From Novosphingobium nitrogenifigens DSM 19370 (lineage in GTDB: Bacteria; Pseudomonadota; Alphaproteobacteria; Sphingomonadales; Sphingomonadaceae): DNA of 64,000 nucleotides. The stretch's first letter is position 1. Each line of letters starts with the position of its first letter. Below are positions 30,141-31,900 of this stretch, piece after piece. Where the stretch lies: the NCBI RefSeq assembly GCF_000192575.1, contig NZ_GL876934.1, forward strand, positions 62,001-126,000. The letters are read 5' to 3'. The translations under genes and the position numbers were made by a program. The notes beneath the pieces were generated by a model. It did no database searches and was not told the origin of the DNA. It saw only the letters and a program-made list of their open reading frames with translations.

Positions 30141-30518
30141 TCAGATGGCCAGCATCGGGCCGAGCGGGCGCCCGGCAAAGACGTGGACGTGAAGATGGGG
30201 CACTTCCTGATGCGCGTCCGACCCGACATTGGCGAGCAGGCGGTAGCCGGGCTCGACATGCCCCGCTTCGCGCGCGACATGACCGACGGCACGAACGAAT
30301 CCGGCAATTTCCGCTTCGCTCGCCTCGCTCGAAAAGTCGTCCCAGCTGACATAGCGCCCCTTGGGAATCACCAGAACGTGAGTCGGCGCCTGCGGGTTGA
30401 TGTCGTGAAAGGCCAAGGCCCAATCATCTTCATAGACCTTGCGCGCGGGGATCTCGCCCCGCAGGATCTTCGCGAAAATATTCTGATCGTCGTAGGGCTG
30501 GGTGGCATCGACGGCCAT
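30141..30518 (-). CDS. hinT: HIT family protein (HinT-like)
   Basis: The 125-residue protein has the histidine triad HLHVHVF (His108, His110, His112) and a conserved NIFAKILRGEIPA start. HinT-type proteins hydrolyse AMP-lysine and other phosphoramidates. It follows hisE by two bases, a common arrangement in alphaproteobacteria. Confidence 0.94.
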   Translation of the reverse strand: MAVDATQPYDDQNIFAKILRGEIPARKVYEDDWALAFHDINPQAPTHVLVIPKGRYVSWDDFSSEASEAEIAGFVRAVGHVAREAGHVEPGYRLLANVGSDAHQEVPHLHVHVFAGRPLGPMLAI

Positions 30519-30520
30519 GA

Positions 30521-30844
30521 TCAGGAACTCCTGCTCGCTTTTTCGACAATCCCCGATGTCCCTTCGCGCCGGGCCAGTTCGGCCAGCACCGTGTCGAACG
30601 CGACGCCGCGTTCGGCCAGCAGCACGAAAAGATGGAAGACAAGATCGGCGGCCTCTCCGGTCAGGGCCGCATCGTCGCCGGTCAGGGCGGCAATGACCAC
30701 TTCGGTCGCTTCCTCGCCGACTTTCTGCGCGATCTTGCCAAGTCCCTTGGCATGAAGGCGCGCCACATAGCTGCTGTCGGGGTCGCCGCCGAGGCGGCCT
30801 GCGATCACCGTCTCAAGACGGGAGAGAAGATCGGCGTGGTCCAT
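30521..30844 (-). CDS. hisE: Phosphoribosyl-ATP diphosphatase
   Basis: The 107-residue protein has the MazG-like fold with KVGEEATEVVIAAL and EAADLVFHLFVLL motifs that bind Mg. It catalyses the second step of histidine synthesis, PR-ATP to PR-AMP. It lies last among the his genes here, 51 bases after the exported microprotein gene. Confidence 0.95.
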   Translation of the reverse strand: MDHADLLSRLETVIAGRLGGDPDSSYVARLHAKGLGKIAQKVGEEATEVVIAALTGDDAALTGEAADLVFHLFVLLAERGVAFDTVLAELARREGTSGIVEKASRSS

Positions 30845-30895
30845 TGCGCGACGGCCATGAAGCGCGACGAGGCGAAGGTCAAGGCTCCCGCGACT

Positions 30896-31063
30896 TCAGT
30901 CGCGGCGCCGGGCCACCTGCCGCCCGATCACCAGTCCGACAACTCCCAGTGCCAGCAAGGCGAGCGCCGCCGGTTCATCGACTTGCGCGCTGTCGGCCGC
31001 CTGCGCCCATGCGGGCGAGGCTGCCACAGCCAGTGCGACAAAGGGAACCATGCGGAAAATCAT
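30896..31063 (-). CDS. 55-residue exported microprotein with PEP-CTERM-like tail
   Basis: Reading leftwards from an ATG at 31063 with AGGTGA seven bases upstream, the frame gives 55 residues. The first 20 form a signal peptide (MIFRMVPFVALAVAASPAWA). About ten residues then follow, and the end is VDEPAALALLALGVVGLVIG plus RQVARRRD. This is the three-part layout of PEP-CTERM sorting signals (PEP motif, membrane helix, basic tail), with DEP in place of PEP. It lies between hisF (74 bases away) and hisE (51 bases away) on the same strand. Almost nothing would be left of the protein after both cleavages. Translation and sorting by an exosortase are untested. Confidence 0.62.
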   Translation of the reverse strand: MIFRMVPFVALAVAASPAWAQAADSAQVDEPAALALLALGVVGLVIGRQVARRRD

Positions 31064-31138
31064 GGGGTTCACCTATCGCGAACCCGCCGATTCTTCAAGG
31101 AAACCGAAAACGGGGAATCCCGTTACGGCACGAAACAC

Positions 31139-31900
31139 TCACCCCCGCGCCGGCAGTCCTGCCGCCCGCAAGGCCGCATGAGCCTGCGCAATGGTATGCG
31201 TTCCGAAATGGAAGATCGACGCGGCCAGAACTGCACTGGCATGCCCTTCGACCACGCCTTCGACAAGGTGATCGAGCGAACCGACCCCACCGCTGGCGAT
31301 GACCGGAACCGGCACAGCATCGGCAATCGTGCGGGTCAGTTCAAGGTCATAGCCGCCCTTGGTGCCATCGCCATCCATCGACGTCACCAGCAACTCGCCC
31401 GCGCCGAGTTCGGCAAGGCGAACCGCATGGGCAAGCGCGTCGATGCCGGTCGGCTTGCGCCCGCCGTGCGTGAAAATCTCCCACTTGCCCGGCCCCACGC
31501 GACGCGCGTCGACCGAGCCGACAATGCACTGCGCACCGAACTTTTCGGCAATGTCCCGGACGAGTTCGGGCCGCGCCACGGCCGCCGAATTGACCGCAAC
31601 CTTGTCCGCGCCTGCCAGCAACAGCGCCCGCGCATCGGCAACCGCGCGCACCCCGCCACCCACGGTCAGCGGCATGAAGCAGACTTCAGCCGTGCGCGCG
31701 ACGACATCGAGCAAGGTGCCCCGCCCTTCGTGACTGGCCGAAATGTCGAGGAAACACAGTTCGTCCGCCCCGGCCTTGTCATAGGCGCGCGCCTGTTCGA
31801 CCGGATCGCCCGCATCGCGCAAGTCGACGAAATTGACCCCTTTCACCACGCGGCCATCGGCCACGTCGAGACAGGGAATGACCCGGATACGAACGGTCAT
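31139..31900 (-). CDS. hisF: Imidazole glycerol phosphate synthase, cyclase subunit
   Basis: The 253-residue TIM barrel has Asp11 in [15 protein letters not shown] and the second catalytic Asp in IVGSVDARR, plus the GGVGSLDHL phosphate-binding loop. With HisH it converts PRFAR and glutamine-derived ammonia to imidazole glycerol phosphate and AICAR. Confidence 0.97.

Follow-up and report, generated by a model that had tools for sequence, protein, structure and literature searches.

Why would a protein that consists of little more than a sorting signal be encoded between two genes of histidine biosynthesis? The question is raised by a small reading frame in a 64,000-nucleotide stretch of Novosphingobium nitrogenifigens DSM 19370 (contig NZ_GL876934.1, positions 62,001 to 126,000), here called the window, whose numbering is used below. 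The frame runs on the minus strand from 31063 to 30899, with its stop codon at 30898..30896 (30896..31063 in all), and encodes a microprotein of 55 aa, MIFRMVPFVALAVAASPAWAQAADSAQVDEPAALALLALGVVGLVIGRQVARRRD; a GTG located 9 nt upstream of the ATG would extend the product to 58 aa. Its neighbours on the same strand, all named by eye, are hisF upstream (31139..31900), hisE downstream (30521..30844) and, after hisE, a gene for a HIT-family protein (30141..30518) which is kept in family loci.

The layout proposed in the initial annotation was borne out when the translation was examined by eye. A signal peptide ending in A-W-A (residues 1-20, 31004..31063, minus strand), with cleavage expected after A20, is followed by a linker of 8 residues, a DEP box (residues 29-31, 30971..30979, minus strand), a hydrophobic helix with the pattern G40-x2-G43-x3-G47-R48 (residues 34-48, 30920..30964, minus strand) and the basic end RRRD. 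No histidine residue occurs in this copy. A search of the whole N. nitrogenifigens genome revealed no second copy at E < 0.1, its two weak matches being stretches of ORFs of about 400 codons, and tblastn with the microprotein against a plasmid collection gave no match.

An ORF of this size is by itself uninformative in GC-rich DNA, and we therefore turned to its relatives. Matches at E up to 1 were obtained in 94 of 99 same-genus genomes, but many of the weak ones are other proteins, and for this reason presence was scored from the DNA upstream of hisE, a gene found in 96 of the 99. The microprotein adjoins hisE on the same strand in 75 of these 96 Novosphingobium-type genomes, 72 of which have hisF upstream. 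In one genome (G065) the locus begins at a contig end, and the stretch fetched for two more (G054 and G092) showed no hisF upstream; since the microprotein stands beside hisE in these two as well, the tie is to hisE rather than to hisF. In the 20 genomes clearly devoid of the gene, hisF and hisE are separated by only -7 to 138 nt, and G016, whose locus is cut by a contig end, counts as neither presence nor clear absence. In one genome, G044, some 800 additional nt containing repetitive reading frames separate the microprotein from hisE (L036, about 600-1400).

In all 107 pairs of copies above 60% identity pN was lower than pS, with a median pN/pS of 0.39, and by this sequence measure the gene is under purifying selection. 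The best-kept positions among the 75 relatives, in the numbering of the window's copy, are G47 (75), G43 (74), A20 (72), G40 and L36 (71 each), P31 (69) and R48 (66). The box reads PEP in 50 relatives, PDP in 11, DEP in 5, SEP in 2 and PQP in 1, and is missing from 6; the linker, which would be the cargo, is short and poorly conserved. A family-wide profile search at E up to 0.001 matched 136 of 249 genomes and 62 of 96 genera, counts that are upper bounds, as some matches are tails of other PEP-CTERM proteins. At the best 30 family loci (18 genera), hisF and hisE flank the match in every case. The 34 named loci are mostly from Novosphingobium, with two from Alteraurantiacibacter and one from Pseudopontixanthobacter. 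With its conserved place and purifying selection, the frame noticed initially is a real, protein-coding gene, kept between hisF and hisE in other sphingomonads.

In sequence, the microprotein is of PEP-CTERM type, with a signal peptide, a [P/D]EP box, a GxxGxxxGR helix and a basic tail. The PEP-CTERM-like character noted initially holds for 6 of 10 chosen relatives, which score above the TIGR02595 cut-off; the window's copy lies below it (9.5 versus 16 bits), as it does for PF07589 (13.8 bits, cut-off 20.7) and for every curated cut-off in NCBIfam and Pfam, and no dedicated model for the microprotein was found in these two collections. Signal peptide, PEP box, helix and basic end are shared with the PEP-CTERM proteins of the XrtA/PrsK-PrsR system (TIGR02595, PF07589; Haft et al. 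2006, PMC1569441). In contrast to those proteins, the microprotein has no cargo domain, carries an extra glycine before the basic tail (G47, 75 of 75), is kept in genomes without an exosortase and, in the window, scores under the cut-off.

Tiny PEP-CTERM-type proteins are already known as models (TIGR04200, NF046088), and by its sequence scores the microprotein is below both cut-offs. The PExPT-CTERM protein targeted by XrtJ (TIGR04200) is equally tiny, and alignments to its model of 57 positions run almost the full length, e.g., residues 4-53 on positions 4-53; however, scores range from 12.0 to 20.1 bits against a cut-off of 40 in the seven members (of 10) with a match at E up to 1, and the exosortases of the window's genome are A and V-like, unlike the XrtJ setting. 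EppA (NF046088) is likewise small, linked to exopolysaccharide (EPS) and membrane-anchored, as its model name states, but the match is 15.3 bits against a cut-off of 90, in one of 10 members, and one of 25 members matches at E up to 0.1. The gene for the flocculation PEP-CTERM protein PepA of Aquincola is RpoN-dependent, with a -24/-12 promoter shown experimentally there (excerpts of PMC9850573; NF033554), yet PepA is far larger (a model of 261 positions) and is encoded next to prsT, whereas the microprotein is cargo-less. A literature search by title returned no paper on this gene, and none joining PEP-CTERM with Novosphingobium or with the histidine operon.

Is the place in a biosynthetic operon meaningful in itself, as the initial annotation implied by calling it odd? 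A TTGAC, the core of a -35 element, occurs between the microprotein stop and hisE in 73 of 74 genomes, where shuffling predicts 3.3 (G044 was left out, its microprotein-hisE interval being 800 nt). In the window it is the TTGACC at 30878..30883 (minus strand), a -35-like element of hisE, and TTGAC also precedes hisE in 14 of the 20 genomes that lack the microprotein. Because hisE keeps a -35-like box of its own and a separate control region precedes the microprotein, the histidine-operon setting looks incidental, and a meaning of the place as such is unsupported. Judged from these elements, the microprotein is probably its own transcription unit.

The control region of the microprotein comes in two classes. 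In class i, a sigma-54 site (TGGCAC-N5-TTGCW, at least 9/11) precedes the gene in 37 of 75 genomes, against 1.5 expected from dinucleotide shuffles, with none at this score on the reverse strand of the 75 upstream regions. The scan was confined to the region before the gene, and some matches found without this restriction (e.g., in G000 and G044) fell inside coding sequence. Counted from the best TGTCGG-N5-TTTACA match to the start of the site, the spacing is 81-83 nt in 31 of the 37 genomes, 70 in three and 104 in one; two have no such motif upstream. The motif itself scores at least 10/12 in 34 of 75 genomes (1.2 expected). According to section 7 of PMC1569441, proteobacterial PEP-CTERM genes carry a 17-nt motif ending in TTTACA, a spacer of 62.8 ± 10.6 nt and a sigma-54 motif, and PrsR was inferred there to bind the motif of these promoters; in Aquincola, a PEP-CTERM gene has been shown to depend on RpoN (excerpts of PMC9850573). 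The class i layout of motif, spacer and sigma-54 site matches, at the level of sequence, the PEP-CTERM box so described, a further likeness to genes of the XrtA/PrsK-PrsR system.

In class ii, the gene is preceded by a palindrome, GTCCC-N5-GGGAC, which scores at least 8/10 in 36 of 75 genomes (4.8 expected) and at least 9/10 in 25 (0.3 expected). The two elements are nearly exclusive: the palindrome at 8/10 or better occurs in 2 of the 37 class i genomes (G074 and G091) and in 34 of the 38 others, and four of the 75 genomes have neither. At the 30 best family loci, the palindrome reaches at least 9/10 in 19 (0.2 expected) and the sigma-54 site at least 9/11 in 8 (0.5 expected). No sigma-54 site was found upstream of the window's own gene, which has instead a degenerate palindrome, GTGCCGTAACGGGAT, 68 nt before the ATG (31117..31131, minus strand); with its 8/10 this copy is weak taken alone, as such a score is expected in 4.8 of 75 regions.

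The PrsR/sigma-54 box was also sought across genomes. A narrow pattern gave 8 matches in 6 of 14 genomes, 6 of the 8 at the microprotein. A wider pattern was found in 87 of 99 genomes, with 3 matches to the reversed pattern in all 99 together, and in 21 genomes one of its sites belongs to the microprotein. In G047 (L162) and G056 (L185) the box precedes a different gene, and the coding sequence that follows is alike in the two loci. Visual inspection shows a conserved non-coding RNA directly after the box in 27 of the 30 box loci listed (L158-L187), and likewise in 5 of 5 exosortase-less genomes (L274-L278). In the window's genome this RNA locus (L172; C2:301413-301507, minus strand, plus about 80 nt after it) is flanked by genes for a NUDIX-like and a monothiol-glutaredoxin-like protein, both named by eye. 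The RNA has an 11-bp hairpin in which 6 pairs show changes on both sides among 23 chosen sequences, and 13 of the 30 box loci gave no Rfam match at gathering cut-offs. This RNA is possibly the main PrsR output in Novosphingobium.

What does the palindrome of class ii stand for? In 15 of 18 genomes (6 of 8 of class i and 9 of 10 of class ii) it occurs at 9/10 or better ahead of the first gene of the XrtA operon, which encodes a Wza-like export protein. The 18 genomes were chosen by the position of XrtA; five further ones entered via the palindrome itself and are not independent, and shuffles of all 23 regions give 0.2. In N. nitrogenifigens the palindrome before the EPS export gene (TIGR03027, 226 bits), which opens the XrtA operon, scores 8/10 and lies at 257 nt. 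A conserved stretch resembling GGCTAACGCAATATTCACCCTTTTT accompanies the palindrome before the first export gene of the XrtA/exopolysaccharide operon (L141, L143, L148, L150, L156, L188-L205). Elsewhere in the window's genome, a choice-of-anchor-A protein of 360 residues that ends in VPEPGMVGLLGLGLAGLVWRRRNARIARAA, an ordinary PEP-CTERM protein, has a perfect palindrome 112 nt ahead of its likely start; another palindrome stands at the head of an EpsF-like gene, similar to chain-length determinants (92 bits, under the cut-off) and 23 kb away from the second exosortase; and a third strict site (C9:581656) falls inside an ORF without any NCBIfam match. The palindrome was also considered as the mark of a genome-wide regulon, and this was rejected: the strict pattern yields 0-3 sites per genome, below the reversed-pattern control in 9 of 11 genomes. 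The strict pattern shows no genome-wide enrichment, and it is the location ahead of EPS genes, not the number of sites, that gives the palindrome its meaning. Since the control region of the microprotein is either the PEP-CTERM box or the palindrome of the XrtA/EPS operon, we place the gene in the EPS/exosortase regulon.

We then compared the occurrence of the microprotein with that of the sorting system itself. The window's genome encodes exosortase A (XrtA; TIGR03109, 325 bits), a second, XrtV-like exosortase (252 bits, below the cut-off of 313), PrsK (488 bits) and PrsR (TIGR02915, 663 bits). The initial annotation would have given up its reading had the frame not been conserved or had the genome no exosortase gene; the frame is conserved and the exosortase is present, and so neither ground applies. 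A PF09721 search at E up to 0.001 detected an exosortase in 91 of the 99 genomes of the genus and none in the other 8. Five genomes without a detected exosortase, rated 92-99% complete (G012, G015, G018, G042 and G067), all keep the microprotein, as does G040 (64% complete); G060 (83% complete) has no exosortase, no PrsK over the cut-off and no microprotein, and G016, with its interrupted locus, is also exosortase-less. Among the five, the EPS export family was not found in G015 and G018, is weak in G067 (44 bits) and partial, below the cut-off, in G012 and G042; PrsK is over the cut-off in four, and below it in G012.

On a tree of HisF and HisE (90 genomes, read without support values, G018 being absent from it), exosortase losses map to three or more places (G042; G012 with G015; G067). 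The G012/G015 pair has a pN of 0.23 versus a pS of 0.54, which suggests, from the two sequences, that selection on the microprotein continued there if the exosortase was lost before their split. The sequence is altered in G067 (PQP, GWY) and in G012 (R48 to C), and in these two the microprotein may be decaying. Conversely, six genomes (G010, G038, G050, G059, G090 and G097) have an exosortase and a microprotein that has lost the PEP box and kept the helix and G47; the six are near neighbours on the tree, perhaps reflecting one event. Retention without an exosortase and loss of the box beside one favour a role independent of exosortase cleavage. PrsK is below the cut-off in five genomes with the microprotein (G012, G017, G034, G039 and G040, of which G034 is rated 100% complete), thus PrsK is no obligate partner everywhere. 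An exosortase is present in 19 of the 20 genomes clearly without the microprotein, hence the microprotein is dispensable to the system.

What the sequences establish is a conserved, syntenic gene with its own regulatory element, an element common to the PEP-CTERM box or to the XrtA/EPS operon. The picture that we propose is of a cargo-less, PEP-CTERM-type membrane microprotein in the EPS/exosortase regulon of Sphingomonadaceae, with its own promoter inside the his cluster. It would be exported by Sec and cleaved after A20, leaving a mature protein of about 35 residues that spans the membrane once, N-out and C-in, and XrtA would recognise it in genomes that have XrtA together with the PEP box. 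The GxxGxxxGR helix may pack against a membrane partner of the PrsK/PrsR-XrtA circuit, and the job would be regulatory, at the inner membrane (feedback on PrsK, or XrtA occupancy), rather than delivery of cargo to the surface. That the microprotein is a small accessory or regulator of this circuit, acting by helix packing, is our tentative choice, at a little under an even chance. It agrees with a conserved coding gene, complete synteny at the best family loci, the sigma-54 and palindrome classes, retention without an exosortase, loss of the box and the short, variable linker; against it count the box in 69 of 75 relatives, which favours recognition by an exosortase, the dispensability of the gene, the gaps in PrsK, the possible decay in G067 and G012, the closeness of the six box-less genomes on the tree, and the weak palindrome and missing sigma-54 site in the window. 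MgrB-like regulators of histidine kinases are small single-span membrane proteins of fewer than 60 residues that are made under response-regulator control. They may offer a working likeness, with the difference that a cleavable signal peptide is expected here. Possible, if doubtful, is a more specific role as a feedback or decoy regulator of PrsK/PrsR and the exosortase: a cargo-stripped tail, induced with the EPS operon, would report the exosortase/EPS state to PrsK or limit XrtA, and together with the box-controlled small RNA it would be one of two main PrsR outputs in class i species, the pair outliving the exosortase in several lineages.

The microprotein could also be an ordinary, very short exosortase substrate, cut by XrtA at PEP/DEP so that a peptide of about 8-11 residues passes to an acceptor as a tiny surface peptide or tag. 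The PEP/PDP/DEP-type box in 69 of 75 relatives, the PEP-CTERM promoter box of class i, XrtA in the window's genome with an exosortase in 91 of 99 genus genomes, and the existence of equally tiny NCBIfam models (TIGR04200) all speak for such a substrate; nevertheless, five near-complete genomes keep the microprotein without an exosortase, six with an exosortase have lost the box, and the linker is not conserved, which leaves this explanation somewhat unlikely. Those same retentions without an exosortase and without the box, and weak, chance-like Pfam matches to unrelated transmembrane segments, would suit an old PEP-CTERM gene recruited as a membrane peptide to a general envelope role, e.g., membrane stress or lipid interaction. 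Such a detachment appears distinctly unlikely, as EPS/PEP-CTERM genes are indicated by each of two separate signs of regulation, and most genomes keep the box.

Two explanations remain that dispense with the sorting system altogether. The constant place directly before hisE is what one would expect of a histidine-operon leader or another cis-acting ORF whose translation tunes hisE, but the window's copy contains no histidine, its amino-acid sequence is conserved with pN below pS, the microprotein and hisE have an upstream element and a -35-like box of their own, respectively, and 20 genomes do without it; we consider a leader highly improbable. That the frame is a spurious ORF in a spacer, as its small size and the scores of the window's copy under every curated cut-off might suggest, is hardly credible for a gene conserved beside hisE, with pN below pS and syntenic at 30 of 30 family loci.

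Returning to the regulator or accessory that we favour, we note that the paper which defined PrsK/PrsR called the stimulus of PrsK obscure (excerpts of PMC1569441). Here, a tiny gene fixed beside hisE swaps a PrsR/sigma-54 box against the operator of an EPS operon and persists without an exosortase. It bears on roles of PrsK/PrsR apart from protein sorting, and on whether a cargo-less sorting tail can be a regulator, and the palindrome is a handle on the regulator of exopolysaccharide genes in sphingomonads.
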